From assembly GCF_001424385.1 (NCBI RefSeq), contig NZ_LMPO01000008.1, positions 248,563 through 312,562 on the forward strand: a DNA stretch of 64,000 nucleotides, given 5' to 3'. Positions within the stretch are counted from its first letter, which is position 1; every line of letters begins with the position of its first letter. Positions 4,318-59,712 of the stretch are shown here, piece by piece. Below the pieces are notes generated by a model. It was not told where the DNA came from and did not search any database. It saw only the letters and a program-made list of their open reading frames with translations. Source of the stretch: Curtobacterium sp. Leaf183. GTDB taxonomy: Bacteria > Actinomycetota > Actinomycetes > Actinomycetales > Microbacteriaceae. The translations under genes were made by a program, and so were the position numbers.

Positions 4318-4332
4318 CGCACCCACAGAACC

Positions 4333-4372
4333 GACGGGAGGCCCGGTGCCAGCTGGCACCGGGCCTCCCGTC
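4333..4372. terminator. 40-bp perfect palindrome, bidirectional terminator
   Basis: GACGGGAGGCCCGGTGCCAG is followed immediately by its exact reverse complement. It sits between two convergent genes, 15 bp after the aldo/keto reductase and 17 bp before the stop of the MpaB-like gene. A second copy at 59659-59698 differs by one compensated base pair. Confidence 0.85.
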
Positions 4373-4389
4373 TGGTCTGGGGTGCGGAC

Positions 4390-11953: not shown

Positions 11954-12066
11954 GTCGATGCTCCTTCGGCACGGACACGATGCCCGTGGAGTTGCCACAG
12001 TAGGGTCGCCGGACGACCGATGACTGTGTGGCTGCACAGAATGCGGTGCACGTCCGCCAGGAGCGG

Positions 12067-12104
12067 ACTGGAGGCTCGGGGCGGTCCCGCCCCGAGCCTC
12101 CAGT
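12067..12104 (-). terminator. Hairpin terminator of the phosphodiester-uptake operon
   Basis: ACTGGAGGCTCGGGGCGG and its exact reverse complement are separated by only TC, 8 bp beyond the stop of the fusion gene. The GGAGGCTCGG core relates it to the other palindromes of this window. Confidence 0.8.
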
Positions 12105-12112
12105 GCGGCGGT

Positions 12113-13690
12113 TCAGCGGTGGGCGCGGAGCGCACCCATCCAGACCGCGTGCAGTTCGTCGGCCGCTCCGGGGTGGGCCACCAGGAAGGGCGCGCCGAGC
12201 TCGGGGAACCCGGACACCGGTCCGTCCTCGGTCATGACGACGCCGCCGGCCTCGTGCACGAGCAGCACCGCGGCCCCGTGGTCGACCGGGTTGAACGCCG
12301 ACACGCAGCCGCCGATCCCCCGGCCGGCCGCGACCTGCGCGATCGTCAACGTGCCGGAGCCCTGGACCCGCAGCGTGCAGGACCGGGCGGCGAGCGCGTC
12401 GAGGAACGCGCCGAACCCGGGCCAGGGCAGGTGCCCGTCGAGCTCGGTGCCGACCACCGCTCCGGCCAGGGGTCGGGGCACGTCGTCGAGCCGGAGCTGC
12501 CGCCCGCGGATGGAGGCACCACGACCGCGACGAGCCTCGAGCACCTCGCCTCGCCAGGGGTCCGCGACGACTCCGACGACCGGACGTCCGCTGCGGGTCA
12601 GACAGAGCGACATGCTCGTCCACGGGATGCCGTTCGCCAGGTTCGTGGTGCCGTCGACGGGGTCGAGGTACCAGCGGTGCTTGTCGCCGGGCGCCTCGCC
12701 GTACTCCTCGCCGACGAAGCCGTGCGTCGGGAACGCGGCACGCACCCGACCGCGGACGTGCTGCTCGACGAGTCGGTCGACGTCGGTCACCAGGTCGGCG
12801 GGGTGCGCCTTCGTCGAGACGGTGCCGACGGGGTGTTCACGGGTGAACGCGATGACCTCGTGCGCGATCCGGTGCGCCAGGGCCTGTGCGCGCGATGCCA
12901 CCTCGGTCTCGGTCGGCTCGCGCGCGGGCTCCGGCCACCCGTCGCGCTCGGCGGCGGTCAGCGCGGCACGGACCAGCGCCAGGTCGTTCGTGGTGATCGA
13001 GTCGGCACCGAGCCGCGCGGCCCACAGCGCGGGTTCGGGGTCGTCGACCGTCCACACGGAGACCTGCAGGCCGAGGTCGTGCGCCGCCCGCACCGTCCGC
13101 GGGGTCAGGAACGCGACGTCGAGGTTGAGCGTCGACGGGGTCAGCTCGACCAGGTCGGCCGGCGTCGGGGGCAGGAGCGACTCCCACGCCAACCAGACGT
13201 CCGCGTCCGGCAGGACCGAGCGCACCGCGTGCATCGCCTCGGGAGCCCCGCACCAGGCAATCGTCACGTCTGCTTCGGACCCGGCGACGGTGGACGCAGC
13301 GACCACGGCGTCCACGGGGTCGGTCAGGTCGACGAGCAGCACTGACTGACAGCCGTCCAGCCGTTCGAGGACGGCGTCGAGCCGTGGGATGCGGTCGAGT
13401 CCGTTGCCCAGCCGCGCGAGGTCGCACCAGGACACCTCGGACACGTGTCGGGCGTCACCCCACAGTCGACCGAGGGTCTCGTCGTGCAGCAGCACGGCGA
13501 CCCCGTCGGCGGTGCGGCGGACGTCGACCTCGATCGTGTCGGCGCCGAGCGCCTCGGCGACCGCGACGGCGGGCAGGGTGTTCTCGCGGCGGACACGCGG
13601 CGCGCCGCGGTGGGCGACCAGGCGCGGCAGGCGCGCCCGGGACCCGCCGTCGTGCTGCGTCTCGAGCGTCGGGAGCGTCTCCGTGGTCAT
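12113..13690 (-). CDS. Fusion: glycerophosphodiester phosphodiesterase + inositol monophosphatase
   Basis: The 525-residue protein joins two complete enzymes. Residues about 22-245 form a GDPD TIM barrel: His27-Arg28 (VAHRG), Glu36-Asn37 (ENTLPA), Glu54/Asp56 (IEVDVRR) and His69 (LLHDE) are all present, with SVWTVDDP near its end. Residues about 255-525 form an inositol-monophosphatase/FIG domain with Glu328-Glu329 (VGEEYG), motif A WYLDPVDGTTNL (Asp343, Asp346), motif B around Asp470 (NPVDHGAA) and HEAGG. Both active sites look intact. The ATG overlaps the transporter ATPase stop by 4 bp. A joined pathway (glycerophosphoinositol to inositol phosphate to inositol) is an inference; the halves may instead act on different phosphates. 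Confidence 0.92.
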   Translation of the reverse strand: MTTETLPTLETQHDGGSRARLPRLVAHRGAPRVRRENTLPAVAVAEALGADTIEVDVRRTADGVAVLLHDETLGRLWGDARHVSEVSWCDLARLGNGLDRIPRLDAVLERLDGCQSVLLVDLTDPVDAVVAASTVAGSEADVTIAWCGAPEAMHAVRSVLPDADVWLAWESLLPPTPADLVELTPSTLNLDVAFLTPRTVRAAHDLGLQVSVWTVDDPEPALWAARLGADSITTNDLALVRAALTAAERDGWPEPAREPTETEVASRAQALAHRIAHEVIAFTREHPVGTVSTKAHPADLVTDVDRLVEQHVRGRVRAAFPTHGFVGEEYGEAPGDKHRWYLDPVDGTTNLANGIPWTSMSLCLTRSGRPVVGVVADPWRGEVLEARRGRGASIRGRQLRLDDVPRPLAGAVVGTELDGHLPWPGFGAFLDALAARSCTLRVQGSGTLTIAQVAAGRGIGGCVSAFNPVDHGAAVLLVHEAGGVVMTEDGPVSGFPELGAPFLVAHPGAADELHAVWMGALRAHR

Positions 13691-14766
13691 CTGGGGCCCT
13701 CCACCAGCACGCCGTCGCGGTAGACCAGGACCGACCCGAGCCGGACGCCGGTGGTGCTGCCGACCGCGGGCGGTGCACCGGTGACGAACGCCCGCAGTTC
13801 GGCGTCGCCAGCGGCGAGCACGACCTCGGCGAAGTGCCCGCGAATGAGCACGCGCGTCACGGTCGCCGTGACCGGCGCGTCGGGGACGAGGGTCACCTGC
13901 TCCGGTCGGACCAGGACCTCGTCGCCGTCGGCGAAGGGCGTGCGCACATCGGCCAGGAACGCGCCGCGCACGGTGCTCGTGGCACCGATGAACGACGCCA
14001 CGAACCGTGTGCCCGGCCGAGCGTAGAGGTCGGTCGGTGAGGCCACCTGCTCGATCCGGCCGTCGTGCATCACGGCGATCCGGTCCGACACGCTCAGCGC
14101 TTCGTCCTGGTCGTGCGTGACGATCACGGTCGTGATGCCCAGCCGCTGCTGGATCCGGCGGATCTCGTCGCGCACGCTCACGCGGAGCTTGGCGTCGAGG
14201 TTCGACAGCGGCTCGTCGAGCAGCAGCACGTCGGGCTCCTGCACGATCGCCCGGGCCAGGGCGACACGCTGCTGCTCGCCGCCCGAGATCGCCGTCGGCT
14301 TCGAGGTCGCGTGGTGCGTGAGCCCGACCAGCTCGAGGGCTTCGCGGACGCGCTCGGCCGTCCGCTGCTTCGACACGCGGCGGGTGCGGAGCGGGAACGC
14401 CACGTTCTGCGTGACCGTCATGTGCGGCCAGAGCGCGTAGTTCTGGAACACCATCGCGCTCGGTCGGCGCTCCGGTCCCAGGTCGGTGACGTCGGCGCCG
14501 CCCATCGTCACGGTGCCGCCGTCGACGGGCAGGAAGCCGGCCACCATGCGCAGCGTGGTCGTCTTGCCGCAGCCGGACGGGCCGAGCAGCGCGACGAGCT
14601 CGCCCTTCGCCACGTCGAGGTCGATGCCGGCGACGACGTCGCGGCCGCCGAGGGACTTGGTCAGCCCGCGCAGGGCGAGTCCGCCGCCGGTGGTCCGGCC
14701 GTCGGTGGGCCGCCCGCCGGTCTGGAGGCTCGGTGCGGGGTCCGCGACGAGCGTTGCGTCCGTCAT
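13687..14766 (-). CDS. ABC importer ATPase with TOBE-type domain (PotA/FbpC/PhnT-like)
   Basis: The 359-residue ATPase has Walker A GPSGCGKTT, Q-loop VFQNYALWPHMTV, signature ISGGEQQRVALARA, Walker B VLLLDEPLSNLDAK and His-loop VTHDQDEA. A C-terminal TOBE-type region follows. This is the ATPase style of type I importers for iron, polyamines or phosphonates. ATG 14766 has AAAGG 6-8 nt upstream and is preferred; an ATG at 14796 would overlap the permease stop. The next gene overlaps its stop by 4 bp. It energises the two permeases upstream. Confidence 0.92.
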   Translation of the reverse strand: MTDATLVADPAPSLQTGGRPTDGRTTGGGLALRGLTKSLGGRDVVAGIDLDVAKGELVALLGPSGCGKTTTLRMVAGFLPVDGGTVTMGGADVTDLGPERRPSAMVFQNYALWPHMTVTQNVAFPLRTRRVSKQRTAERVREALELVGLTHHATSKPTAISGGEQQRVALARAIVQEPDVLLLDEPLSNLDAKLRVSVRDEIRRIQQRLGITTVIVTHDQDEALSVSDRIAVMHDGRIEQVASPTDLYARPGTRFVASFIGATSTVRGAFLADVRTPFADGDEVLVRPEQVTLVPDAPVTATVTRVLIRGHFAEVVLAAGDAELRAFVTGAPPAVGSTTGVRLGSVLVYRDGVLVEGPR

Positions 14767-14792
14767 GGGGTCGCCTTTCGTGCTGGGAGTGG

Positions 14793-15605
14793 TCATCGGA
14801 TCTGGAACCCGTCCGCCAGGCGTCCGCCCATGATGTGCTTGCGCGCCAGGGTCATCAACACCACGGACGGGATGCTGAGCGCGATCGCGAACACCGCCGA
14901 CACCTGCCGCGGTGAATTCAGGACCAGCGAGTACATCGCGGTCGGCATCGTCATGTACGTCGGGGCGCCGACCAGGTAGGTGCCCTGGGCCTCGTCGAAC
15001 GAGGCCAGGAAGCTCATCACCATCGCGACGAGGATGCCCGGCCAGGCGATCGGGAACGTGACCGACCAGAAGGTGCGCCAGCGGCTCGCCCCGGCGTCGC
15101 GGGCGGCCTCCTCGAGGGATCGCGGCACGGCCGAGAACGCCGCCGCGGGCAGCCACGTCATGAACACGACACAGCCGAGCACGTGGACGATGAGGATGCC
15201 CGTCACGGTGTTCATCAGGTTCAACGCCGTGAACATCGCCGACATCGTGACGAACAGTCCCATCTTCGGGAAGGCGTTCGTGGCGAACAGCCCGACCAGC
15301 ACCACCCGGCGACCGGGGAACTCGATGCGGCTGATCGCCCACGCGGCCGGCAGGCAGATGACCGCGGCGATCAGGACCGTCAGCGGGGCCAGCACGAGCG
15401 AGTTCTGCACGGCGACGGCCAGGGACGGGTCCTCGAACACGGTCCCCCACCACTGCAGCGTCCACCCGTCGGGCAGCAGGTTCGGGTAGGTCCAGCTCGT
15501 GGCGAAGGCCCGGACGGCCAACCACAGCAGGGGACCTGCGATGAACACCGCCAGGACGACGGCGGTCGCCCAGACCAGGGCGGTGCCGGTGAGGCGCTTG
15601 ATCAC
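14793..15605 (-). CDS. ABC importer permease (second)
   Basis: The 270-residue protein has six hydrophobic segments and the EAA loop SLEEAARDAGASRWRTFWSVTFPIAWPGI that contacts the ATPase. It resembles PotC/PhnV-type permeases. The GTG start (15605) forms a GTGA overlap with the preceding permease's stop, matching the other junctions in this operon. Confidence 0.9.
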   Translation of the reverse strand: MIKRLTGTALVWATAVVLAVFIAGPLLWLAVRAFATSWTYPNLLPDGWTLQWWGTVFEDPSLAVAVQNSLVLAPLTVLIAAVICLPAAWAISRIEFPGRRVVLVGLFATNAFPKMGLFVTMSAMFTALNLMNTVTGILIVHVLGCVVFMTWLPAAAFSAVPRSLEEAARDAGASRWRTFWSVTFPIAWPGILVAMVMSFLASFDEAQGTYLVGAPTYMTMPTAMYSLVLNSPRQVSAVFAIALSIPSVVLMTLARKHIMGGRLADGFQIR

Positions 15606-16651
15606 GGTCGCTCCTGCTTCTTCGCCAGTTCGGTCGACTTCGCCAGCTCGCCGGCGTTCGCCCGGACCGTGGACCGCAGGTACAGCACGCTGGCGGCGGC
15701 GGCGAACGCGAACACGATGAACGCCATCGCGGTGGACTGCTGCGGACGGTTGTAGGACTGGAAGTACTTCGAGATGTCGACGCCGAGCATCGACGGGGCG
15801 TTCGGGCCGGTGAAGTACGGCACGGTGAACGACCCGAGCACACCGATCACGGTGAACGTCGTCGCGATGACGATCGGGGTCGCGGCCATCGGCAGCAGCA
15901 CCTGCCACACGACGCGCCACGTACCGGCGCCGGCGTCCTTCGCGGCCTCGATCAGGGCGTCCGGTGTGCCCTGCAGCGCCCCGGCGATCATCAGCACGGC
16001 GAACGGCAGGCTCGTCCAGACGCTGCCGAACACGACCGCGACGAGCGTGTAGCCCCACACCGGCACGTCGATGCCCACCTGGGCGCCGGCGCTGCGCAGG
16101 AACCCCTGCGCGTCGGTGAACGTCAGGATCGACCAGCTCGCGATCACCACCGGCACGAAGATCGGCACGACGGCCAGCACGCTGAGCGTCCGGCCGAGGA
16201 ACCCGCCGCGCATCCGCAGGATCACGGCGATCAGCACGGCGAGCGCGATCGTCAGTCCGGTCGACGCAACCGTGACCCCGATCGTGGCGCCGAGGTCGCG
16301 CAGGAACGTCGGGTTGCCGAGCAGCGTGCCGTACACCGCGAACGAGAACCCGCGTACGGTGTCCTGGCCGATGTCGGCGAGCGCCTGGTTCAGCCCGCCG
16401 GTGAACCCGAGGCTGAACAGGGCGGCGTTGACCACCGGCACGCCGACGAACAGCACGACCACCAGCACCGGGGCGGTGACGAGCGCGATGCCCTGGACGC
16501 GCCGGCGGCGCTCCAGCCGCTGCTGGATGGTGCGGCGGACGGTCGGACCGCCCGCGCCCTGGGCCGGTGACGGGACGGGCGGGAGGCCCGTGGCGGAGTC
16601 GCCACGGGCCTCCCGGTCGAGTGCCGGGCCGTTCGGGACGGTCTGGGTCAC
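15602..16651 (-). CDS. ABC importer permease (first)
   Basis: The 349-residue permease begins with a disordered cytoplasmic tail of about 50 residues (REARGDSATGLPPVPS region), then six hydrophobic segments and an EAA loop (DALIEAAKDAGAGTWRVVWQVLLPMA). GTG 16651 is chosen because it makes the same 4-bp GTGA overlap seen at the other operon joints; an ATG seven codons upstream would lie inside the lipoprotein gene. Codons 13-24 lie in a 36-nt GGGAGGCCCG hairpin that looks like the intergenic terminator family. Confidence 0.88.
   Translation of the reverse strand: MTQTVPNGPALDREARGDSATGLPPVPSPAQGAGGPTVRRTIQQRLERRRRVQGIALVTAPVLVVVLFVGVPVVNAALFSLGFTGGLNQALADIGQDTVRGFSFAVYGTLLGNPTFLRDLGATIGVTVASTGLTIALAVLIAVILRMRGGFLGRTLSVLAVVPIFVPVVIASWSILTFTDAQGFLRSAGAQVGIDVPVWGYTLVAVVFGSVWTSLPFAVLMIAGALQGTPDALIEAAKDAGAGTWRVVWQVLLPMAATPIVIATTFTVIGVLGSFTVPYFTGPNAPSMLGVDISKYFQSYNRPQQSTAMAFIVFAFAAAASVLYLRSTVRANAGELAKSTELAKKQERP
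16580..16615. repeat. GGGAGGCCCG-type palindrome inside a permease gene
   Basis: CGGGAGGCCCGTGGCG and its exact reverse complement surround a GAGT loop, giving a 16-bp stem. It resembles the terminator palindromes at 4333 and 59659 but lies within codons 13-24 of the permease, reading REARGDSATGLP. Confidence 0.85.
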
Positions 16652-17808
16652 TGCGGGACCTTCGCGTCCCATGCCGCGTTCATGTCGGCCTGCAGCTCGC
16701 TCTGGAAGCCGAGACGGAGCTTGGACGGGTCGGCCTTCGAGAACTGCTCCGCCACGCTCGACGGCAGCGAGCTGAGCGGGATGACCGGGTAGCCGGACAC
16801 GGCGCTCGCGACGAGCTGCTGCCCCTTCGACGACAGGACGAAGTCAGCGAGTTCCTCGGCGGCCTGCTTCTTGGCCTTCGGCTCGGTCGCCGGGATGCCG
16901 AGGTAGCTCGCGCTCCCCGTGAACGTCGGGTCGGCTATCTGTGTGAACGCGATGTCCTTGCCGATCGTGCCGGCCTTCTGCGCGGTGATGAACTGGTCGC
17001 TCCACACCGGGGCCATGGCGATCTGGCCGGAGCCGAGCATCTGCAGCACCTGGTCGTTGCCGTTCGGGTAGACGCCCTTCTGGTACGTCGACGGGCCGAG
17101 GTCCTTGAGCGCGGCGAAGCCCTCGTCCCACTTCGACTCGAGCGACTTGTCGTACGTCGTCTGCATGGTGGTCTGCTCGCTCTTGGACAGGTACTTCGCC
17201 AGCACGGTCATCACGAACGAGCCGCCGGAGCCGCCCGAGGACGGCGAGTTGTACGCGAACTGGCCGGGGTTGTCCTTGATCCACGCGAGCAGGTCATCGA
17301 GGGTCTTCGGGGCCTTCTTGACCTTGGTGGAGTCGTACGCCAACAGCACGCTCGAGGCCCGGTACGGGATCGCGCGGTCGCCGCCCTGCTGTTTTGTGGC
17401 TGCGGGGACGTCCTTCAGGTTCGGGATCGCGCTGTCGCTGACCTTCGCCATCAGGCCGGCCTTGCCCGCGGTGGTGACGAAGCCGGCGTCGACGAGGTCG
17501 TAGGCGACGGTCTTGCCGGCCTTGACCGCGGTGGCCAGGTTGGCCTGGGTCTGCGCGTCGTGCTCGCCGTGCAGGTCGATGCTGGTGCGGACGGAGATCT
17601 TCGGGTGCTGCTTCTCGAAGGCGGGGATGAGCGACTTGTCCCAGAGGTCCTGGACGTTCGTGTCGCCGCTGATGAACACGGTGAGGCTGGTGCTGCCGGT
17701 GCCGCTGTCGGCGTTGTCGTTCGCGGCGTTGGCGCTCTGGACGCAGCCGGACAGCGCGACGGTGGCGACTGCGGCGATCGCGAGGCCGGCGAGGGCTCGG
17801 GTCTTCAC
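16648..17808 (-). CDS. ABC importer solute-binding lipoprotein
   Basis: The 386-residue protein starts with a lipoprotein signal: KTR, a hydrophobic stretch, and lipobox ALSGC with Cys22 as the lipidation site. The mature part has the periplasmic-binding-protein pattern (SLTVFISGDTNVQDLWDKSLIPAFEKQHP, GYPVIPLSSLP) of the Fe3+/2-aminoethylphosphonate/polyamine cluster. GTG 17808 is preceded by AGGGAGACC. As first gene of a five-gene operon ending in a phosphodiesterase-phosphatase fusion, it may bind an organic phosphodiester. That ligand is inferred from context only. Confidence 0.88.
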   Translation of the reverse strand: MKTRALAGLAIAAVATVALSGCVQSANAANDNADSGTGSTSLTVFISGDTNVQDLWDKSLIPAFEKQHPKISVRTSIDLHGEHDAQTQANLATAVKAGKTVAYDLVDAGFVTTAGKAGLMAKVSDSAIPNLKDVPAATKQQGGDRAIPYRASSVLLAYDSTKVKKAPKTLDDLLAWIKDNPGQFAYNSPSSGGSGGSFVMTVLAKYLSKSEQTTMQTTYDKSLESKWDEGFAALKDLGPSTYQKGVYPNGNDQVLQMLGSGQIAMAPVWSDQFITAQKAGTIGKDIAFTQIADPTFTGSASYLGIPATEPKAKKQAAEELADFVLSSKGQQLVASAVSGYPVIPLSSLPSSVAEQFSKADPSKLRLGFQSELQADMNAAWDAKVPQ

Positions 17809-18140
17809 GGCGGTGGTCTCCCTGGTTCGTGGGGGTGGAGCGTGAGGGTGGTGCGCGGGGTGGTTCGCGGGGGTGTGGAGCGGTCGGTGCGGGAACGTTC
17901 CCGCACCGTGATCGAGTGTGGCGCTGCCCGGTGAACGCCGGGTGCCGCGGCAGTGCCGCCCGGGTGAACTCGTGCCGCGCTGCGCGCGCCGCACACACCG
18001 TGCGAGCGCTGCGCCCGGTGCGAGGTTGACGGCCCCGTGCCGCCGAACAACCTCGCACCGGGCCGCCGTCGCGGCACGAAGCACCAACTCCGCACCGTGC
18101 TCGCACTGCACCAGCCCGCGAAGCTCGCACCGTGCGTTCC
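17809..18140. other. 332-bp repeat-rich gap upstream of the uptake operon
   Basis: There is no gene here. Contents: the leader of the solute-binding gene, the 24-bp palindrome at 17885-17908, the inverted repeat GGTGCGAGGTTG (18017-18028) / CAACCTCGCACC (18048-18059), and a diverged copy GGCACGAAGCACCAACTCCG (18073-18092) whose reverse complement matches repeats near 21692-21735. Several CCGTGC words follow to the end of the neighbouring gene. Confidence 0.7.
17885..17908. promoter_or_regulatory. Perfect 24-bp palindrome, candidate LacI-family operator
   Basis: CGGTGCGGGAAC is followed directly by its reverse complement, 77 bp upstream of the solute-binding lipoprotein start. The central GGGAACGTTCCC has the CG-centred symmetry of LacI-family operators. 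A LacI-family gene lies 1.8 kb away at 19681-20694. The regulator-site pairing is inferred. Confidence 0.5.
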
Positions 18141-19091
18141 TCAGCGGCGCATCCGCACCCCAGCCCGACGCAGCGCCGCACGCAGCAGACCCTCGTCCCA
18201 GAGGTCGGACCACGTCAGCCGGACGACCGCCCGCACTCCGGGCATGGCCCGCAGTCGGTCCTCGCGGTGTTTCTCGGCGACGACCACGTCCTCCACCGAC
18301 CGGCCGGCACGCATCCGCCCGTCGCGGTACTTGACCTCGCCGTCGAACTCGACGACGACCCCTGCCGCAGGGAACCAGAAGTCGACGACGATGTCGGGCC
18401 ATCCCGCCTGCCGGAAGCGGTGTTGCAGGACCGGTCGCTCCGTGCCGAGCTGATCGAACCGGACGCGCAGGACGGACTCGCCGGGAGAACCGGACTCAGG
18501 GTCCGCAAGGTCCACGGCCGTGAGCGCGCGCCGACGCCCCTTCGGCCCGCGCCGCTCGATCGACTCGCGCACCCTGGCGCGGTCGGTCCCCCGTCGCAGG
18601 AGGTCGTCGAGCGCGACCACGGCATCGACCAGCGGGAACGTCAGCGCGAGGTCCGCGGCCACACGCTCGGGACCGTGGGTGCGGAGCCCGTCCGACGTCC
18701 GGACCGTGCTGCGATCCCCCGTCGGGTCGAGGTCGGCGTGCACGATGAAGGTGGCGTTCGTCGTGCGGCCGTCGGCTCCCGGGGTGGTCAGGTGCACCCG
18801 GTCCGGCGGATCCGTGACGAGCGGCACCGCGAGGACCACGGCTGCCGACACGTGCGACAGGACCCGATCGGGCCGGATCCGATCAGCCACGGCCTCGATG
18901 CGGACCCGGTGCTGTTCAGCTGAGCGCAGCGGTTGCCAGGCCGCTGTGTCGACGAAGAGCCCTCGTCCTATCCGGGTGAGCTCGCCCGCAGCGGCGCGCT
19001 GCCGGATGCGGTCGGACTCGTCGGGCCGGTGCGAGGACGTCCGGAAGAGCGGAACTTGCGGGACAGGTGCGAGATCGAGCATTCGTTGCAT
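18141..19091 (-). CDS. AbiEi-like / DUF559 protein (second copy)
   Basis: The 316-residue protein shares the architecture of the gene at 145-1089: an N-terminal winged-helix-like part (RQRAAAGELTRIGRGLFVDT), the VLSHVSAAVVLAVPL segment, and a C-terminal DUF559/Vsr-like domain with DIVVDFWFPAAGVVVEFDGEVKYRDG, whose Asp, Glu and Lys could form a PD-(D/E)xK site. This copy therefore looks more complete than the first. ATG 19091 follows AGGAT. No toxin gene is adjacent. Its 3' end runs into a repeat-rich gap. Function unknown. Confidence 0.75.
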   Translation of the reverse strand: MQRMLDLAPVPQVPLFRTSSHRPDESDRIRQRAAAGELTRIGRGLFVDTAAWQPLRSAEQHRVRIEAVADRIRPDRVLSHVSAAVVLAVPLVTDPPDRVHLTTPGADGRTTNATFIVHADLDPTGDRSTVRTSDGLRTHGPERVAADLALTFPLVDAVVALDDLLRRGTDRARVRESIERRGPKGRRRALTAVDLADPESGSPGESVLRVRFDQLGTERPVLQHRFRQAGWPDIVVDFWFPAAGVVVEFDGEVKYRDGRMRAGRSVEDVVVAEKHREDRLRAMPGVRAVVRLTWSDLWDEGLLRAALRRAGVRMRR

Positions 19092-19201
19092 GGCGTGATC
19101 CTGGTCAGGCGAGACGCAGCGTCACGACGCAGTCGCCTGAACTGTGTAGGGGAGGCCGACGAGTGGCACCCGTGGAGGAACCGGGCTGCGACAATGGGGC
19201 C

Positions 19202-19684
19202 GTGACCGAACGCACCTGGGGCTGGCTCGCAGCCGTCATCGACGTCGTCCTCATCGTGGTGTTCGCCCTGATCGGGCGGTCCTCGCACGGCGAGGCGAAC
19301 ACGCTCGGCGCGCTCTGGACCACCGCCTACCCGTTCCTGGCTGGCTGGGCGATCGGCTACGTCACCAGCGGCGCCTGGGCCCGCCCCCTGCGGACCTGGC
19401 CGACCGGCGTCGTCGTCTGGATCCTGACGGTCTTCGTGGGGATGGCCATCCGCGTCGCGACCGGCCAGGGCGTGGTCGACGGCAATCCCCTGCCGATCTC
19501 CTTCCTCATCGTCGCGACGATCGTCCTCGGCGTGTTCCTGCTCGGCTGGCGCGCGATCGCGCGCGTCGTCCTGCGCGCTCTCGCACGTCGCCGCTCGGTC
19601 GACGCCCCGGCGCTCGACGACCCGACGACGAACGACCCGGCAACGGATCCGTCGAACAGCCCCGGCGTCACGCCAGGCACGTGA
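19202..19684 (+). CDS. DUF3054 family membrane protein
   Basis: The 160-residue protein has four hydrophobic segments typical of DUF3054 (IDVVLIVVFALIGRSSHGEA, PFLAGWAIGYV, TGVVVWILTVFVGMAIR, LIVATIVLGVFLLGWRAI) and a short Pro/Asp/Thr-rich cytoplasmic tail. GTG 19202 is preceded by GACAAT with six bases between and no Shine-Dalgarno, so it is probably leaderless. Its stop overlaps the GTG of the LacI-type gene (GTGA), making the two one operon. Function unknown. Confidence 0.85.
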   Translation: MTERTWGWLAAVIDVVLIVVFALIGRSSHGEANTLGALWTTAYPFLAGWAIGYVTSGAWARPLRTWPTGVVVWILTVFVGMAIRVATGQGVVDGNPLPISFLIVATIVLGVFLLGWRAIARVVLRALARRRSVDAPALDDPTTNDPATDPSNSPGVTPGT

Positions 19685-20694
19685 ACGGCAGCCGCGGCTC
19701 GCAACCGACGATCGTCGACGTCGCCGCACGAGCGGGTGTCTCGAAGTCCGCGGTGAGTCGTGTGCTCTCCGGCACGGGCCGCTTCTCCGACGAGACCCGT
19801 GAACGCGTCGAGCGCGCCGCGGCGGAGCTCGGCTACGTGGCAAACGCTATGGCACGAGGGCTCGTGAGCGGTCGGACACACACCATCGGCATGCTCGTGC
19901 GCGACGCCTCGTCGATGCTGTACACCGCGCTGCATGCCGTCATGGAGCAACGCGCGTCCGAACTCGGCTACCGCGTCGTCACCACCACCGGAGTCGGACG
20001 GGTCGAGGACGAGAAGTCCGCGCTCGCATCGCTGGTGTCGATGCGGGTCGACGGACTGGTCGTGTGCAGCGGGCTGCTCCCGTCCGCGGACATCGCCGAG
20101 TTCGCCCCGCGCATCGCGACCGTGGTCGCCGGCCGCCCTGAGCTGCACCCGGCGCTGTCGAGCGTCTACTGCGACGAGGTCGACGGCGGGCAGCGCATCG
20201 CCGACGCCGTCGCCGATGCCGGTCACACTGACGTCGTGGTGCTCACCGTGCCGCTCGACAACGCGATCACGCAGCATGCGCGGTCGCAGGCGATGGCCGG
20301 GCGACTGCGCGACCGCGCGGTGAACGCGATCGACATCGACGCCAGTTTCGTTCGCCCGCCCGATGACGTCGCGGCCGACGTCGTCGAGGTCATGCGGGAG
20401 TCCGGCGCCACCGCCGTGATGTGCCCCACCGACCGACTCATGCTCGACGTCTGCGAGGCTCTGTCCAAACGCGGGGTCGGCGTGCCGCGCGACGTCTCGG
20501 TGACGGGGTTCGACGGCGTGTACCCGCTCGCCAGCGACTGGATCGGGTTCACGACGCTGCAGCAGCCCGTCGAGCGCATCGGACGCGAGGCCATCGACCT
20601 GGTCATCGGCCGCATCGAGGACCCGGGCAGGACCGTCGAGCACCGGCCCCTGCGAGGCACGGTGCTGCCCGGCCGCACCCTGCTCCCCCGCTGA
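19681..20694 (+). CDS. LacI-family transcriptional regulator
   Basis: The 337-residue repressor begins with the LacI helix-turn-helix and hinge (PTIVDVAARAGVSKSAVSRVLSG, then ARGLVSGRTHTIGMLVRD) and continues with a periplasmic-binding-protein-like effector domain ending in TTLQQPVERIGREAIDLVIGR. The GTG start overlaps the DUF3054 stop by 4 bp. No sugar operon is directly adjacent. The nearest LacI-like palindrome is 17885-17908, before the phosphodiester-uptake operon. Effector unknown. Confidence 0.92.
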   Translation: MNGSRGSQPTIVDVAARAGVSKSAVSRVLSGTGRFSDETRERVERAAAELGYVANAMARGLVSGRTHTIGMLVRDASSMLYTALHAVMEQRASELGYRVVTTTGVGRVEDEKSALASLVSMRVDGLVVCSGLLPSADIAEFAPRIATVVAGRPELHPALSSVYCDEVDGGQRIADAVADAGHTDVVVLTVPLDNAITQHARSQAMAGRLRDRAVNAIDIDASFVRPPDDVAADVVEVMRESGATAVMCPTDRLMLDVCEALSKRGVGVPRDVSVTGFDGVYPLASDWIGFTTLQQPVERIGREAIDLVIGRIEDPGRTVEHRPLRGTVLPGRTLLPR

Positions 20695-20930
20695 CGCAGC
20701 GCTGCGGGGCGCACGGTGCGCACGTGTCCGGCTCGTGCGGGCCTCGCCGGGACGAGCACGGTGCGAGGTTCGTTCCCCGTGCCGCCACGATCGCGTGGTG
20801 CGAGGAACCGTCCCCGCACCAGGCGATCAACCTCGCACGGAGTGGCAGACGCAGCACCGTGCGACCACGCAGCACCGTGCGACCACGCAGCACCGTGCGC
20901 GAACACGCAACCGTGCGCAACGCACCGCCC
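20695..20930. repeat. Repeat-rich gap: inverted GGTGCGAGGTT elements and 18-bp tandem repeat
   Basis: Outer arms GTGCGAGGTT (20761-20770) and AACCTCGCAC (20829-20838) enclose a smaller pair (GGTGCG at 20798, CGCACC at 20815). Then ACGCAGCACCGTGCGACC repeats at 20849-20866 and 20867-20884, with a partial third copy from 20885. The same arm sequence occurs at 18017-18059. It separates convergent genes and may terminate both. Confidence 0.75.
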
Positions 20931-21581
20931 TCAGAACAACCCGCCGCGTGCCCCGTCGCCCTCGAGCCCGCGGAACATGTCCGACACGAGCGCCTCGATC
21001 TGCGGCTCGACGAGCCGCTCCACGGCCTCGGCGATGCGTGCTCGATGGTCGATCAGCGCCAGGCACACCGCCGTGCCGGTCGACCGGGCGCACTCGTCCG
21101 ACAGCTCGATCTCGTGCCGCAGTGCCGCCTTCGCCTCGTCCGACAACGGCTCGCGCGGCGCGGTGTCCGACGACGCTCCAGTGCCGGCGAGCCCCTCGAG
21201 CGTGAACAGGAACGGCGCCCCGTCCTGCGGCTGCGGGTCGACGTCGAGCCCCTGGAACTCGGGCGACAGCCCCTCGGCCGGCTGGTACCCCGCGTGCCGC
21301 TTGCGGGCATCGGCGCGCTCGAGCTCGCGGTGCAGTAGCGGCAGGTTCTTGGCGGTGTAGTCGTCCACGGCGTCGTCGATGATCGTCGACATCCGACCGA
21401 TCAGCGCGTGCTGCACGGGGTGCGGCACGTCCGGACCGAAGCCCGCGGCACTGGCGATCGGCGACCCGGTGCACTTCCGGCAGATCCGCGTGCGCGGTCG
21501 AGCGGTCCCGATCTGCCACCGCGGCAACCACCGCAGCCACAGGTCGACGGCGTTCCGCACGCGCCCGTCGATGCCGTCCAT
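20931..21581 (-). CDS. Hypothetical protein with CxxC motif
   Basis: The 216-residue protein is not one I can name confidently. It starts with an amphipathic segment (VDLWLRWLPRWQIG), then CRKCTGSPIASAAGFGPDVPHPVQ, whose CxxC could bind zinc or a thiol cofactor, then a charged helical region (YTAKNLPLLHRELERADARKRH). The last 60 residues are rich in acidic helices (RIAEAVERLVEPQIEALVSDMFRGLEG). ATG 21581 is preceded by TATCGT with six bases between, suggesting leaderless transcription. Both flanks are repeat-rich. It looks cytoplasmic. Confidence 0.65.
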   Translation of the reverse strand: MDGIDGRVRNAVDLWLRWLPRWQIGTARPRTRICRKCTGSPIASAAGFGPDVPHPVQHALIGRMSTIIDDAVDDYTAKNLPLLHRELERADARKRHAGYQPAEGLSPEFQGLDVDPQPQDGAPFLFTLEGLAGTGASSDTAPREPLSDEAKAALRHEIELSDECARSTGTAVCLALIDHRARIAEAVERLVEPQIEALVSDMFRGLEGDGARGGLF

Positions 21582-21779
21582 GGTCCAACGATACGGACAG
21601 GAGGCCCGGATCACCCCCGCCACGGCCGCCCGGTCCTCGATCCACCACCGGGCACCGTGCGGACGTCGTTGCCCGTGCCACGCTGCCCGCCCGGTGCGAG
21701 GCTGGTCCCGGGCACGGAACGACCAACTCCGCACCACACCGTCGAGCACGGTGCGGGCGAGGGTCCGCACGACCCCGCG
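21582..21779. repeat. Repeat-containing spacer with degenerate GGTGCG inverted repeat
   Basis: GGTGCGAGGCTGGTC (21692-21706) and GACCAACTCCGCACC (21721-21735) form 15-bp arms with 12 matches. CACGGTGCGG and CACCGTGCGG words occur at both ends. The arms belong to the same family as the repeats in the gaps at 17.8-18.1 and 20.7-20.9 kb. It holds the leaderless-type -10 of the unknown gene and the 3' end of the DUF3097 gene. Confidence 0.65.
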
Positions 21780-22709
21780 CTACGCCACCGGCTCGGTGAC
21801 GAAGTCGATGAGCTCCTCGACCCGGCCGAGCAGCTGCGGCTCGAGGTCGGCGAACGTCCGGACCTGCCCCAGGATCCGCTGCCAGGCGCGGGCGATGTCG
21901 GCCTGCTCGGCGTGCGGCCATCCGAGCGCGGCGCAGATGCCGGCCTTCCACTCGATCGACCGTGGGATCGTCGGCCAGGCGCGCAGTCCGACGCGCTCGG
22001 GCTTGACCGACTGCCAGACGTCGACGAACGGGTGCCCCACGACCAGCACGTGCGCGCCCCACGTGCCCTGCATGACGGCGGACGCGAAGCGGGACTCCTT
22101 GGACCCGGGCACCAGGTGGTCGACGAGCACCCCGACTCGACGATCACGTGACGGGCGGAAGTCGTCCAGGACGGCAGCGAGGTTGTCCACGCCGGAGAGC
22201 TCCTCGACGACGACGCCTTCGACCCGCAGGTCCGCTCCCCAGACCTTCTCCACGAGTTCGGCGTCGTGCTTGCCCTCGACCATGATCCGCGAGGGCAGGG
22301 CGACCCGCGCGCGCTGCGACTCGACCGCGAAGGACCCGGACGCGGTGCGCAGCCGACCACCGTCGGAGGCGTGCCGCACAGCCGGACCCGCACCGGGCCT
22401 CCCGTCCGATCCGGCGCGAGCCGGGGGTGCGGCGGCGGCAGACCGCCCGACCGGCGCCTGCGGCCGTCCCAGCGTGACGAGCTCGCCCTCGAGCAGGAAC
22501 TGCCCGTCGAAGGGGAATGCCCGGGTGCGGCCCTTCCAGTCCTCGAGCGAGATGTTCCCCGCCTCGAGCCCGACGACTGCGCCGGCCCAGCCGGACGCCG
22601 GGTCCTCGAGCACCATGTCCCGCTCGAGCGGCACCTGCCGCACCTTCCGCACGCCCTTCGAGCGCCAGTCGCCCGAGAGCACGTCGTTGCCGTACCGGTC
22701 CTCGTCCAC
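21780..22709 (-). CDS. DUF3097 family protein
   Basis: The 309-residue protein matches the actinobacterial DUF3097 family: DRYGNDVLSGDWR at the N-terminus, EDWKGRTRAFPF, then a Toprim-like core with SRIMVEGKHDAELVEKVWGADLR, RRVGVLVDHLVPGSKESRFA and HVLVVGHPFVDVWQSVKP. The VEGKHD and VDHLVPGSKE stretches place acidic residues as in Toprim metal sites, which suggests nucleic-acid binding (inference). GTG 22709 is chosen because TACGCT lies exactly seven bases upstream. Residues about 85-125 are a Pro/Ala/Gly-rich linker. Confidence 0.88.
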   Translation of the reverse strand: MDEDRYGNDVLSGDWRSKGVRKVRQVPLERDMVLEDPASGWAGAVVGLEAGNISLEDWKGRTRAFPFDGQFLLEGELVTLGRPQAPVGRSAAAAPPARAGSDGRPGAGPAVRHASDGGRLRTASGSFAVESQRARVALPSRIMVEGKHDAELVEKVWGADLRVEGVVVEELSGVDNLAAVLDDFRPSRDRRVGVLVDHLVPGSKESRFASAVMQGTWGAHVLVVGHPFVDVWQSVKPERVGLRAWPTIPRSIEWKAGICAALGWPHAEQADIARAWQRILGQVRTFADLEPQLLGRVEELIDFVTEPVA

Positions 22710-22879
22710 CCGCACGAGCGTAGTGTCGACCCGGCTCCGGACGACATCGACCGGCCGACACCACCCACTCCGGACGGACGAGCCGACACGCGTCCAACCC
22801 CGTGTCGATCCAGTCGGCACCGCGGGACGAGGACGGCCGTGTTTCGCGGAACAGAACGCATGTTGCCGATTCGTAAACA

Positions 22880-22912
22880 AACCTTTCAGTAAAGAAGGTT
22901 GTCCGTTACTGT
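22880..22912 (+). promoter_or_regulatory. AT-rich operator/promoter of the ROK repressor gene
   Basis: AACCTT (22880-22885) and AAGGTT (22895-22900) form an inverted repeat with a 9-bp spacer in an unusually AT-rich patch containing GTAAACAAA and CAGTAAAG. The -10 TACTGT (22907-22912) is seven bases before the ATG, predicting a leaderless mRNA. ROK repressors commonly bind AT-rich dyads in their own promoters; autoregulation here is inferred. Confidence 0.55.
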
Positions 22913-22919
22913 CCTCGAC

Positions 22920-24161: not shown

Positions 24162-24326
24162 GCCAGCACCACTGCCAGCACCACCGCCAGCACCGTCGCC
24201 AGCTCCACCCACCCGCACCACTCGAGGCACCACCCCAGCCCTGTCCGAGGGCTCTCCGGTGCGCCCGCAGACCGGCCGTCGGCCGGCGCGGACGCCCTCG
24301 GAGCGAGACCAGAGAGCGAGTACCGC

Positions 24327-25667
24327 ATGTCACACCCCCGGCAGCACCTCCGGCGGATCATCACCGCCGCCGCCATCGCCACCACGGGCGCCCTCGTCGT
24401 CGCCGGCTGCAGCTCCGGCAGCAGCGCGTCGTCGATCGACAAGACCGCACCGAAGGACCTGAAGGGCACGGTCTCGCTGTGGCACTTCTTCACGGGCCGC
24501 GAGGCCGGCGTCGTGAAGAGCGCCGTCGCCGGGTTCGAGAAGGCCAACCCCGGCGTGACGGTCGACATCCACGCCGGGCAGGACGACGAGAAGCTGCAGA
24601 AGGCGATCTCGTCGGGCCAGAGCATCGACGTGGGGCTGTCGTACTCGACGGCGATCGTCGGCAGCTTCTGCTCGTCGGGGGCGTTCCGTGACCTGTCCCC
24701 GTACATCAAGCGGGACAAGGTGGATCTGTCGGACATCCCGAAGGCCGTGCAGGGCTACACCGCCTACAAGGGCACCCGGTGCACGCTGCCGGCACTCGCC
24801 GACGTCAGCGCGCTGATGTACAACAAGCAGGCGTTCGCAGCGGCCGGCATCACGACCCCGCCGAAGACCCTCGACGAGCTCAAGGCCGACGGCCTGAAGA
24901 TGACGACGTACAACGCCGACGGGTCGATCAAGCAGCTCGGCTTCAACCCGCTCATCGACTTCTACGAGAACTCCCCGGAGCACTTCGCGCCGATGATCAA
25001 CGGCACCTGGCTCGACAGCAAGGGCAACAGCGAGATCGGCACCTCCGCCGGCTGGAAGAAGCTCATCCAGTGGCAGAAGGGCTTCGTCGACGCGATCGGC
25101 TACGACAAGCTGAAGACGTTCACGTCCGGCCTCGGCCAGGAGTTCGCCGCCGACAACGCGTTCCAGACCGGTCAGGTCGCGATGCAGATCGACGGCGAGT
25201 ACCGCACCGCCTTCATCAAGGACCAGAAGCCGGACCTGGACTACGGCACCGCGCCGACCCCCGTGCTGGACGGTCTCGGCAACTACGGCTCGACCTACAT
25301 CGCGGGCAACGTCGCGGGCATCGCGAAGGGCTCGAAGAACCCGGAGCTCGCCTGGGCGCTGCTCAAGTACCTGTCGACGAACACCGACGCGCAGGTCACG
25401 ATGGGCAACGGGCTGAAGAACATCCCGACGATCACCTCCGCGCTGCAGTCCCCGAAGCTCGAGGTCGACGAGAACTACAAGACCTTCGTCGACGTCGCGG
25501 GCAACGCCAAGACGATCACCTCGCCCGCCACGGCGGACGGCGCCGCCTACATCGGCACCTTCACGAAGTTCTGGCAGGCGTACCAGGAGAACGGCGGCGA
25601 CCTCGACGCCAAGCTCAAGAAGCTGGACTCGGACATCGACAACGCGAACCAGCTGGCGGGTCCGTGA
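24327..25667 (+). CDS. Sugar ABC transporter solute-binding lipoprotein
   Basis: The 446-residue protein has a lipoprotein signal ending VVAGC, then a family 1 carbohydrate-binding-protein body: GTVSLWHFFTGREAGVVKSAVAGFEKANPGVTVDI, LPALADVSALMYNK, QTGQVAMQIDGEYR. Such proteins capture oligosaccharides outside the membrane for CUT1-type importers. ATG 24327 is followed by basic residues (HPRQHLRR) as expected for the n-region. It heads an operon with two permeases, a GH4 enzyme and a kinase. Beta-linked disaccharide specificity is inferred from the GH4 gene. Confidence 0.93.
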   Translation: MSHPRQHLRRIITAAAIATTGALVVAGCSSGSSASSIDKTAPKDLKGTVSLWHFFTGREAGVVKSAVAGFEKANPGVTVDIHAGQDDEKLQKAISSGQSIDVGLSYSTAIVGSFCSSGAFRDLSPYIKRDKVDLSDIPKAVQGYTAYKGTRCTLPALADVSALMYNKQAFAAAGITTPPKTLDELKADGLKMTTYNADGSIKQLGFNPLIDFYENSPEHFAPMINGTWLDSKGNSEIGTSAGWKKLIQWQKGFVDAIGYDKLKTFTSGLGQEFAADNAFQTGQVAMQIDGEYRTAFIKDQKPDLDYGTAPTPVLDGLGNYGSTYIAGNVAGIAKGSKNPELAWALLKYLSTNTDAQVTMGNGLKNIPTITSALQSPKLEVDENYKTFVDVAGNAKTITSPATADGAAYIGTFTKFWQAYQENGGDLDAKLKKLDSDIDNANQLAGP

Positions 25668-26707
25668 TGAGCGCCACGACGAAGACCGCCGGACGGGAGG
25701 CACGGCCCACCCGGGCCTCCCGCCCCGCGGGTCCGAGCGGGTCGGGTCCGCTGCCCCCCACGGCTCCGGCACGCCGGCCGCGGTCCGCCGAGTCCCGCCG
25801 CCGTCTGGTCGCGCTGGCCATGCTCGCACCGGCCCTGCTGGGCCTGGTCGTCTTCTTCGCCTACCCGCTGGTGGCGAGCGTCTTCTACTCGTTCACGCGC
25901 TACAACCAGCTGCAGGAGCCGCAGTTCGTCGGCCTGCTGAACTACCGGTTCCTGTTCACCCAGGACCCGCAGATCGGCCCGGCGGTCCTCAACACGATCT
26001 GGTTCGTCGTCATCCTGGTGCCCGTCCGCATCGTCTGCGGGCTCCTGGTCGCTGGGCTGCTGTCACGCGCCCGCACCGCGACGGGCCTCTGGCGCACGCT
26101 GTTCTACCTGCCCGCGCTGGTACCGCCGGTCGCGAGCGTCGTGGCGTTCGTGTTCCTGTTCAACCCCGGCACCGGACCTGTCAACCAGGTCCTGCGGCTG
26201 TTCGGGATCGACGGACCGCTGTGGTTCAACGACCCGTCGTGGTCGAAGCCGTCGCTGGTGATCATGGGCGTCTGGGTGATGGGCGACATCATGATCATCT
26301 TCCTGGCGTCGCTGCTCGACGTGCCGCGTGACCTGTACGAGGCCGCGTCGCTCGACGGGGCGAACGGCGTCCAGCAGGTGCGGCACATCACCCTGCCGAC
26401 GATCGCGCCGGTGATCGGGTTCGCCGCCGTCACGGGGGTGATCGCCGCGCTGCAGTACTTCACCGAGGCCGCGGTGGCCTCGGGTGTCGCGAGCGGCAAG
26501 GCCACCATCGGTGGCGGTACCGCGGCACAGCTCGGGTACCCGGGCACGTCGCTGCTGACCTACACCGAGCTGCTGTACCAGCACGGGTTCGCGAACTTCC
26601 AGTTCGGCTACGCGTCCGCGATGGCCGTCGTGCTGTTCGTGGTCACCGCGGTCGTGCTCGTGTTCACCATGCGCCGGATCTCCGTCTTCAGACCTGAGGA
26701 GTCCTGA
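25667..26707 (+). CDS. Sugar ABC transporter permease (MalF/UgpA type)
   Basis: The 346-residue permease has a disordered N-terminal tail of about 45 residues, then six hydrophobic segments and the EAA loop YEAASLDGANGVQQVRHITLPTIAPVI. The N-terminal tail (GREARPTRASRPAG) is encoded by another GGGAGGC...GGGCCTCCC palindrome. The start overlaps the lipoprotein stop by 1 bp (TGATG). Confidence 0.93.
   Translation: MSATTKTAGREARPTRASRPAGPSGSGPLPPTAPARRPRSAESRRRLVALAMLAPALLGLVVFFAYPLVASVFYSFTRYNQLQEPQFVGLLNYRFLFTQDPQIGPAVLNTIWFVVILVPVRIVCGLLVAGLLSRARTATGLWRTLFYLPALVPPVASVVAFVFLFNPGTGPVNQVLRLFGIDGPLWFNDPSWSKPSLVIMGVWVMGDIMIIFLASLLDVPRDLYEAASLDGANGVQQVRHITLPTIAPVIGFAAVTGVIAALQYFTEAAVASGVASGKATIGGGTAAQLGYPGTSLLTYTELLYQHGFANFQFGYASAMAVVLFVVTAVVLVFTMRRISVFRPEES
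25694..25722. repeat. GGGAGGC-type palindrome inside a permease gene
   Basis: CGGGAGGCACGG and CCGGGCCTCCCG are 12-bp arms with one mismatch around a 5-nt loop, falling in the N-terminal codons of the permease. It resembles the hairpin at 16580-16615 in an unrelated permease and the intergenic terminators. Confidence 0.75.
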
Positions 26708-27600: not shown

Positions 27601-27608
27601 CACCACGC

Positions 27609-28916: not shown

Positions 28917-30001
28917 GCCGCGCCGGTGCGGCGGGGGCGAGCCGGTCCTCCCGTCCGGCCGCTCCGTCCGCGCCGACCGCTCCGGCCGCTCCAGAGGTCG
29001 TGCTGGCGGTCGACGGCGGCGGCAGCAAGACCGACGTCGTCGCCGTCGCACTCGACGGGAGCCTGGTCGGCCATGCCCGCGGACCCGGATCGAACCCGCA
29101 GACGCGCGGGTGGGAGCTCGCCGGGCCGATCCTCGACGACGTCCGCGGGCGGGTCGTGAGCGCCCTCGACGGTGCGCGGATCCGCACCACGCACGTGTAC
29201 CTGGCCGGGCTCGACCTGCCCGACGAGCTGACCGCGGCGACCGCCGCACTCCGCCACTGGGAGGCGGACGGCGGCGCGCCGGACGTCCTCGACAACGACC
29301 TGTTCGCGCTGCTGCGGGCCGGGACCCTGTCGCCGGACGCCGCAGCGGTGGTGTGCGGCACCGGCATCAACGCCCTCGCGGTGCGTGCCGACGGCGAGAC
29401 CGCCCGGTTCCCCGCGATCGGTGACGTGTCCGGCGACTGGGGTGGTGGCGCGTACCTCGGCAACCGGGCGCTCTGGCACGCGGCCCGCGCGGACGACGGG
29501 CGCGGTCCAGCGACGGCACTCGCGTCCGCCGTGCCCGCTGCCCTCGGCCTCGGGACGGTCCGCGAGGTCACCGAGGCCATCCACTTCGGACGCCTGGACC
29601 AGCGGGTCTTCAACCGGCTCTGCCCCGTGCTCTTCGAGGTCGCGGCCGACGGGGACGCCGTCGCCGCCGCCGTCGTCGCGCGGCAGGCCGAGGAGATCGT
29701 CCTGCTGGCGTCGGTCGCGCTCGGACGGCTCGGCCTCGGGACGTCGCCGGCGCTCCCCGTCCCGGTCGTCCTCGGCGGCGGCGTGCTCGCGGCACGGCAC
29801 CCGATGCTCGTCGACGCGGTCGTCGGCGGCCTGCGCTCCCGGGTTCCCGGCGCGGTCCCGACGTGGGTGACCTCGCCGCCGGTGCTCGGCGCGGGGCTCG
29901 CCGCGCTCGAGTCCGTCGGAGCACAGCCAGAGGCGCTCGAGCGCTACCGAGCGGCCGTGCTGTCAAGGGAGTTCACGTCCACGGCGGCGCTCATCCCGTA
30001 G
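28904..30001 (+). CDS. BadF/BadG/BcrA/BcrD-type sugar kinase (N-acetylglucosamine kinase-like)
   Basis: The 365-residue protein has the ASKHA-fold phosphate-1 loop LAVDGGGSKTDVVAVALDG, VVCGTGINALAV, and GDVSGDWGGGAYLG, as in the BadF-type kinase family that includes GlcNAc kinases. The start is uncertain: GTG 28904 has GGAG eight bases upstream and overlaps the GH4 gene by 13 bp; a GTG about 30 codons later would also leave a full domain. The first 30 residues are Ala/Ser/Pro-rich (SRSSRPAAPSAPTAPAAP). As last gene of the uptake operon, it probably phosphorylates the imported sugar or the free hexose released. Confidence 0.85.
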   Translation: MGTLSRAGAAGASRSSRPAAPSAPTAPAAPEVVLAVDGGGSKTDVVAVALDGSLVGHARGPGSNPQTRGWELAGPILDDVRGRVVSALDGARIRTTHVYLAGLDLPDELTAATAALRHWEADGGAPDVLDNDLFALLRAGTLSPDAAAVVCGTGINALAVRADGETARFPAIGDVSGDWGGGAYLGNRALWHAARADDGRGPATALASAVPAALGLGTVREVTEAIHFGRLDQRVFNRLCPVLFEVAADGDAVAAAVVARQAEEIVLLASVALGRLGLGTSPALPVPVVLGGGVLAARHPMLVDAVVGGLRSRVPGAVPTWVTSPPVLGAGLAALESVGAQPEALERYRAAVLSREFTSTAALIP

Positions 30002-30002
30002 C

Positions 30003-30124: not shown

Positions 30125-30139
30125 GCGGGCGCAGCTGCG

Positions 30140-39589: not shown

Positions 39590-44501
<4,912 letters not shown>

Positions 44502-59558: not shown

Positions 59559-59658
59559 GCGTTCCTCGGGGTCCTGGCGGTGAGCGACTCGCAGCCTATC
59601 AAGCGGGCGGGACCCGGACCTGCTGCCGCACTGGGGGCCGTCGGCGCACCCCGAGACG

Positions 59659-59698
59659 GACGGGAGGCCCGGTACCAGCTGGTACCGGGCCTCCCGTC
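59659..59698. terminator. 40-bp perfect palindrome, second copy
   Basis: GACGGGAGGCCCGGTACCAG is followed by its exact reverse complement. It is identical to 4333-4372 except that one G-C pair is A-T on both arms. It begins 14 bp beyond the HtrA-type gene stop. Confidence 0.85.
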
Positions 59699-59712
59699 GG
59701 ACGTGCGGAGCG

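Follow-up and report, generated by a model that had tools for sequence, protein, structure and literature searches.

The permease gene P1 of Curtobacterium sp. Leaf183 carries a hairpin in its N-terminal codons, just past the stop codon of the preceding solute-binding protein (SBP) gene. This hairpin is constrained as nucleic acid. Hairpins are also enriched at other SBP-to-permease junctions, both in this genome and across a sample of Actinomycetes. The best explanation, which we consider quite likely to be correct, is that they act as operon-internal 3'-end elements of the SBP gene and keep the level of SBP mRNA above that of permease mRNA.

Genes and hairpins of the window

The window, i.e. 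the whole analysed stretch of 64,000 nucleotides, contains two SBP genes that overlap the start codons of permease genes (Table 1). The genes of the first importer are arranged on the minus strand in the order SBP, P1, second permease, and ATPase. Among named organisms, Curtobacterium (Microbacteriaceae, Actinomycetes) has the permeases nearest to P1; it accounts for 15 of the 22 loci in the set of P1 relatives. In the second importer, the gene caller preferred the ATG at 25820 as the start of permease P3 over the ATG that overlaps the SBP stop codon, and therefore left the hairpin at 25694 outside the coding sequence. The N-terminal codons of permeases from two different ABC importers indeed host both palindromic strings (16580 and 25694), as had been claimed in the original prediction.

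Table 1. Genes, hairpins, and related palindromes of the window (positions are those of the window)
Feature	Position	Strand	Remarks
Family palindrome	4331..4374	.	20-nt arms, one mismatched pair; between convergent gene ends
Related palindrome	12064..12107	.	20-nt arms; just past the stop codon at which the run of called genes ends (gene 12113-13690)
ABC ATPase of the P1 importer	13687..14796	-	
Second permease of the P1 importer	14793..15605	-	best hairpin at its junction scores only 8
ABC permease P1, BPD_transp_1	15602..16651	-	GTG start; 4-nt overlap with the SBP stop (GTGA); hosts the 16580 hairpin
Hairpin	16580..16615	-	perfect 16-bp stem, 4-nt loop; P1 codons 13-24 (REARGDSATGLP); starts 32 nt past the SBP stop
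SBP gene, SBP_bac_8 / SBP_bac_1	16648..17808	-	upstream of the 16580 hairpin; start as called
Second SBP gene, SBP_bac_1	24327..25667	+	
Permease P3	25667..26707	+	ATG start, overlapping the SBP stop codon (ATGA); host of the 25694 hairpin
Imperfect hairpin	25694..25722	+	12-position stem, one mismatch; starts 26 nt past the SBP stop
Half-element before the kinase	28947..28958	+	30 nt past the stop of the preceding gene (28916)
MFS-loop half-element	43825..43834	+	encodes a peptide conserved in 30 aligned orthologues; not part of the element
Family palindrome	59657..59700	.	just past the stop of the 59713-61728 (-) gene

Conservation and synonymous constraint of the hairpin at 16580

The 131-nt region of this hairpin folds with a z value of -4.39, which was equalled by none of 200 shuffles. 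Its stem score was reached by none of 300 synonymous recodings that retained the peptide and the codon usage of the genome. The palindrome is real, as predicted: the stem is perfect, and shuffled and recoded sequences fall far below it. Its disappearance once codon bias is counted, which the original prediction had named as an argument against itself, did not occur. Among 23 P1 orthologues given the same test, the stem was reached by 0 of 300 recodings in 14, by 1–13 in eight, and by 43 in L034, which lacks the hairpin.

Orthologues of P1 are present in 24 of 60 Curtobacterium genomes, the one studied here included, and share 65–100% identity. The hairpin is kept in 23 of these 24, down to 65% identity. 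In L034, the sole exception, both arms are retained with extra sequence between them; the same arrangement was observed in the P1 tail of L173 (C. aurantiacum). Within the set of 22 loci, the hairpin occurs in 14 of the 15 from Curtobacterium and is absent from that of Propionibacterium (L180); the other six (L182 and L184–L188) remained unscored since no upstream gene was called.

In an alignment of 23 sequences (without L037), mean residue conservation is 0.94 in the hairpin codons and 0.65 elsewhere in the tail. Diversity at the fourfold-degenerate sites of the hairpin codons is 0.053 (10 sites) vs 0.353 in the rest of P1 (174 sites; p = 4.6e-6). Among 301 stretches of 12 codons, the hairpin ties for the second lowest fourfold diversity, and the other lowest stretches overlap it. 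Within the genus, the stem shows little covariation: there is a single compensatory pair, and 36 of 500 shuffles reached the covariation score.

These data bear on the idea that a high G+C content combined with codon bias, or else the conservation of a peptide, produced the hairpin as a by-product. Such a by-product would account for the string in the MFS gene and for the copy at 25694 taken alone (see below). For 16580 it is refuted by the synonymous recodings and contradicted by the fourfold-site constraint; the matched permease-to-permease controls described below contradict it as well. As a general explanation it is very improbable.

In all 24 P1 orthologues, the stretch from the hairpin to the first helix, as defined by hydropathy, is free of in-frame start codons, so that the hairpin must be translated. 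A start of P1 downstream of the hairpin, ahead of this helix, was thus ruled out. In L036, the first later in-frame start sits at the very edge of the first helix. The structure prediction for P1 had a mean pLDDT of 37.4, which is too low to be used as evidence for disorder of the tail.

A palindrome family at gene ends of Curtobacterium

The survey for the pattern GGGAGGC-N4..34-GCCTCCC revealed 110 palindromes in the 3.58-Mb genome that contains the window, compared to one for the reversed control. The recurrence of the palindrome is thus genome-wide. We examined 19 palindromes, namely the window copies and the first 15 loci of the genome-wide list; 16 of the 19 are no more than 60 nt away from a stop codon, seven of them with a stop codon on both sides. 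The flank consensus is GTCCGTC and lacks a U-tract. The gene caller placed three of them inside coding sequences, i.e. the 16580 copy, L001, and L015, the latter two being short loci for which the call may be wrong. The palindrome at 12064 is a probable operon-end element.

A slightly narrower pattern was used for comparison with other genomes; it detected 108 palindromes in the genome of strain Leaf183 and 60 and 52 in two other Curtobacterium genomes. The 117 genomes from other genera of the Microbacteriaceae mostly contained 0–8, near their reversed controls (0–11). Two of these 117, G093 and G113, had 31 and 20 palindromes with the GGGAGGC core, respectively. The family is largely genus-specific. 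Since its members are concentrated in Curtobacterium and near stop codons, the stem at 16580 is spelled like the gene-end palindromes of the genus.

The half-element GGGCCTCCCG occurs 394 times in the genome (205 + 189) compared to 35 times for the reversed control. Two copies per counted palindrome account for at most 220 of the 394, so that many copies are single or decayed. The window contains 10 copies (0.70 expected from dinucleotide shuffles). Five are located in called coding sequences, where codon shuffles predict 0.98 and none of 200 shuffles yielded as many; two of these five belong to the 16580 hairpin.

Other inverted repeats were also observed between convergent gene ends of the window. 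One at 45484-45543 has 28-nt arms with 96% complementarity and a 4-nt loop, and is unrelated to the GGGAGGC family. In the region 30022-30108, a CGAGACGCCG-like unit is repeated several times in inverted, overlapping copies. No Rfam matches at gathering score were obtained for window positions 15500-31000. A scan for consensus terminators listed neither the 16580 nor the 25694 hairpin. Of the two parts of a canonical intrinsic terminator, the G+C-rich hairpin is present at 16580 and the U-rich tract after it is absent.

Insertion of a repeat, a disfavoured explanation

The original prediction interpreted the palindromes as members of an intergenic repeat family that had been inserted into tolerant protein tails. 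The family itself was confirmed: it is genome-wide and mostly intergenic, and the copy at 16580 does lie in a variable N-terminal tail. Insertion found no such support. The alignment of orthologues, proposed as a search for precise absence of the segment, revealed no empty site in the genus, where the hairpin is nearly always kept. Outside Curtobacterium, the sole scorable P1 orthologue, L180, has no hairpin near the stop codon. Its tail aligns to that of P1 with gaps of one and two residues in the hairpin codons and with others nearer the helix; a clean loss of the 12 hairpin codons was not seen in this orthologue. To judge from these alignments, the hairpin at 16580 is not a recent insertion. 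A mobile or spreading repeat would agree with the 110 palindromes of the genome and with the largely genus-specific distribution of the family, and is at odds with the lack of an empty site, with the second site, where the stems of other genera are unrelated, and with the conserved peptide of the MFS gene (both below). This reading is already strongly disfavoured, and the chance that it is correct is very small.

The second site in permease P3

The string at 25694-25722 is present as predicted, whereas the hairpin taken by itself does not exceed chance. Its region folds with a z value of -0.09, and the predicted best local fold does not include it. By a stricter score, a different hairpin, at +60, is the strongest of the P3 tail, and its score was equalled in 75 of 300 synonymous recodings. 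The evidence for an element at 25694 comes from its position and from its relatives, not from the window copy itself.

Within the genus, 34 near full-length P3 orthologues were found and 30 of these were fetched. By a less strict score, the strongest tail hairpin was at the 25694 position in 27 of 30. The synonymous test was applied to 10 of the 30 and gave 5 to 129 of 300 recodings as good. Reduction of fourfold diversity at the hairpin is mild (0.165 at six sites vs 0.329; p = 0.022), and pair counts revealed no clear covariation within the genus.

Outside the genus, 25 P3 loci from 24 genomes were analysed, three of which (L214–L216) are distant, with an SBP identity of 26–30%, and may be paralogues. 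A hairpin with a score of at least 10 was located near the SBP stop codon in 19 loci; in L193, it overlaps the stop codon itself. Of the remaining six, three scored 9–9.5 and three had no hairpin. The mean best hairpin score of these tails was 11.7 vs 7.3 in synonymous shuffles. Individually, 16 of the 25 loci differed from their shuffles at p ≤ 0.05 and three scored below them; the overall p of 1e-6 is too optimistic because the loci are related to one another.

The hairpins of these 19 loci, which share the position of the 25694 hairpin, have stems of unrelated sequence, which argues against a spreading repeat. They also speak against a protein-binding palindrome, i.e. a site that acts as DNA and not as RNA. 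Such a site would fit a palindrome that is conserved with little covariation; the link of the position to stop codons does not suit it, and we regard it as most unlikely.

In P3, the ATG at 25820 that the gene caller chose lies at the edge of the first helix. Translation through the 25694 hairpin is therefore not forced by the lack of a later start, but it is likely.

Half-elements in the MFS and kinase regions

The strings reported as half-elements at 43825 and 28947 are both present; neither site, however, folds better than shuffles (z = +0.65 and -0.91, respectively). Of 40 Curtobacterium genomes, 39 possess the MFS gene, and 30 orthologues were aligned. The same position of the loop is occupied by RASR in 28 of the aligned sequences, by RSSR in L354, and by RASS in L334, and the exact GGGCCTCCCG is present in 10 of 30. 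What is conserved in the MFS half-element is thus the peptide, which is encoded as GGGCCTCCCG with some choices of codons. Its origin by insertion is contradicted by the RASR-type peptide in 30 of 30 orthologues, a kind of result that the original prediction had itself listed as speaking against insertion.

Upstream of the kinase gene (window 28916-28960), CCTCCCGTCCG was detected in exact form in 8 of 25 orthologous loci and in relaxed form in 14 of 25. This half-element forms no convincing hairpin in the window.

Hairpins at SBP-to-permease junctions

In the genome of strain Leaf183, hairpins with a score of at least 10 within 110 nt were present at 15 of 29 SBP-to-permease and 2 of 32 permease-to-permease junctions; the P3 junction is counted among the 15 through a hairpin at +59, not through that at 25694, and without P3 the number is 14 of 29. 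Among codirectional neighbours at most 150 nt apart, hairpins follow 13 of 29 SBP stop codons vs 7 of 118 other stop codons (p = 1.6e-6). When only neighbours at most 30 nt apart are considered, the numbers are 3 of 15 and 3 of 74 (p = 0.057). Convergent ends of other genes display a hairpin in 17 of 41 cases.

The class-wide survey included 80 regions from 45 genomes (one to three each), which were hand-picked, and thus non-random, from the best-scoring SBP matches listed. Five regions were dropped (three without a permease, two with a permease more than 600 nt away), which left 75 junctions from 42 genomes and 13 families. In this sample of Actinomycetes, hairpins were identified at 42 of 75 SBP-to-permease junctions vs 8 of 75 permease-to-permease junctions of the same operons (p = 3.7e-9), with mean fold z values of -1.92 and -0.05, respectively. 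With one junction per genome, the ratio was 22 of 42 to 5 of 42 (p = 1.3e-4). The other 33 of the 75 SBP junctions had no hairpin at the score cut-off of 10. Family f19 displayed a hairpin at 8 of 22 SBP-to-permease junctions. None was observed at the five junctions of family f6 (L246–L250), which may set its SBP:permease ratio another way.

Of the 42 class-wide hairpins, 20 must be coding, 15 are noncoding, and seven are ambiguous, where "must be coding" means that a start codon precedes the hairpin and none lies between the hairpin and the first helix. Nine coding, six noncoding, and one ambiguous were counted among the 16 hairpins of strain Leaf183 that score at least 9.5. The forced-coding calls are less certain where the hairpin touches the first helix, as in L310 and, in strain Leaf183, L162. 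Hairpins start 18–75 nt past the SBP stop codon in the coding set and 3–42 nt past it in the noncoding set, a difference that follows partly from the classification itself. In all 26 class-wide cases with a short gap, the hairpin starts at least 17 nt past the candidate start codon, i.e. beyond the presumed footprint of an initiating ribosome.

The tolerance of protein tails, which had been regarded as the common rule, is thus replaced by a position just past the stop codon of the preceding gene. Longer permease tails as preferred hosts of hairpins were also considered and rejected (26 with vs 26 without a hairpin; p = 0.62).

Proposed mechanism

The transcribed hairpin would halt a share of the RNA polymerases, block 3'-to-5' decay, or do both, and the outcome would be an excess of SBP mRNA over permease mRNA. 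The element would sit in the variable N-terminal codons of the permease; since the permease start codon overlaps the SBP stop codon, it has to lie within the permease gene. The first Curtobacterium copy, at 16580, would employ for this purpose the palindrome used by the genus at gene ends. The hairpin probably makes the cell produce more SBP than permease. We infer this effect on the RNA level, and likewise its division between termination and protection.

Two versions of this explanation can be distinguished. One of them, a serious possibility, involves stability only and no termination at the hairpin: an endonuclease would cut in the permease part and leave an SBP mRNA that ends in a hairpin resistant to 3'-to-5' exonucleases. 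The lack of a U-tract after the palindromes agrees with this version. So do the protective hairpins of Escherichia coli, 17 of 26 of which are located inside the downstream coding sequence and lack U-tracts, and the five ABC operons of E. coli in which the SBP gene is the one stabilised (Dar and Sorek, 2018, PMC5927463). The occurrence of the same palindrome between convergent gene ends (7 of 19), where termination is expected, is less easily reconciled with stability only. The same is true for the internal terminators that follow SBP genes of ABC importers in cellulolytic Clostridia; these hairpins do terminate, many with few U, and reached efficiencies of 20.7–96.1% in a reporter (Wu et al., 2022, PMC9045158).

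The other version, which we put forward tentatively, is transcription termination of a tailless or factor-assisted type, with translation as the gate. The hairpin would stay free as long as the ribosome is at the SBP stop codon, and a re-initiated ribosome would melt it. The missing U-tract weakens this version. It gains from the sequence shared by 16580 and the gene-end palindromes, and from the start of all 26 short-gap hairpins at least 17 nt past the candidate start codon, although the classification itself accounts in part for the more distant location of coding hairpins.

A broader form of the translation-gated version seems rather unlikely to us. It states that, in Actinomycetes, the N-terminal codons of many permeases that follow an SBP gene serve as a translation-gated 3'-end signal of the SBP mRNA. 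The ribosome at the SBP stop codon would keep the signal active, and the re-initiated permease ribosome would turn it off. In Curtobacterium, with a full-strength gene-end palindrome in frame, the frequency of re-initiation would then set the subunit ratio of the importer.

Comparison with known systems

Production of more SBP than permease is a known strategy, probably used here by another bacterial group. No report of such an element in Curtobacterium was found in a shallow search of the open-access literature. The structure between malE and malF of E. coli is a REP sequence, i.e. it belongs to a sequence family other than the Curtobacterium palindromes. It likewise follows an SBP gene and stabilises its mRNA but, unlike the hairpin at 16580, is intergenic (PMC5927463).

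The hairpins described here resemble the SBP terminators of Clostridia in the stem-loop just past the SBP gene and ahead of the translocator genes, in the long G+C-rich stem with few U, and in the expected excess of SBP. The search for the latter, however, covered intergenic regions longer than 50 bp (PMC9045158), whereas 20 of the 42 hairpins from Actinomycetes lie within the permease coding sequence and were identified from sequence alone. The copy at 16580, being inside the permease gene, does not qualify as intergenic in that sense.

With the coding-embedded hairpins of E. coli, they share the location in the downstream coding sequence, the absence of a U-tract, and the preference for SBP genes in ABC operons (PMC5927463). 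Extra conservation at wobble positions is also common to the E. coli hairpins and 16580, and is weaker at 25694. The E. coli hairpins were detected via RNA decay data, at a mean distance of 107 nt into the gene (PMC5927463), in contrast to the 18–75 nt past the SBP stop codon in our forced-coding set and to its purely genomic detection; in addition, the copy at 16580 is spelled like the gene-end palindromes of its genus. The Curtobacterium case may be viewed as joining both precedents in Actinomycetes, with permease codons as the host of an SBP element.

Implications

It has long been asked how a single operon can supply binding protein in excess of channel. If the proposed explanation is true, part of the answer in Actinomycetes is written within the permease gene, where the element would escape annotation pipelines and be lost from codon-optimised constructs. 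The codons of permease tails can be shaped by RNA, and the tail peptide should be assigned a protein function only after this has been checked.
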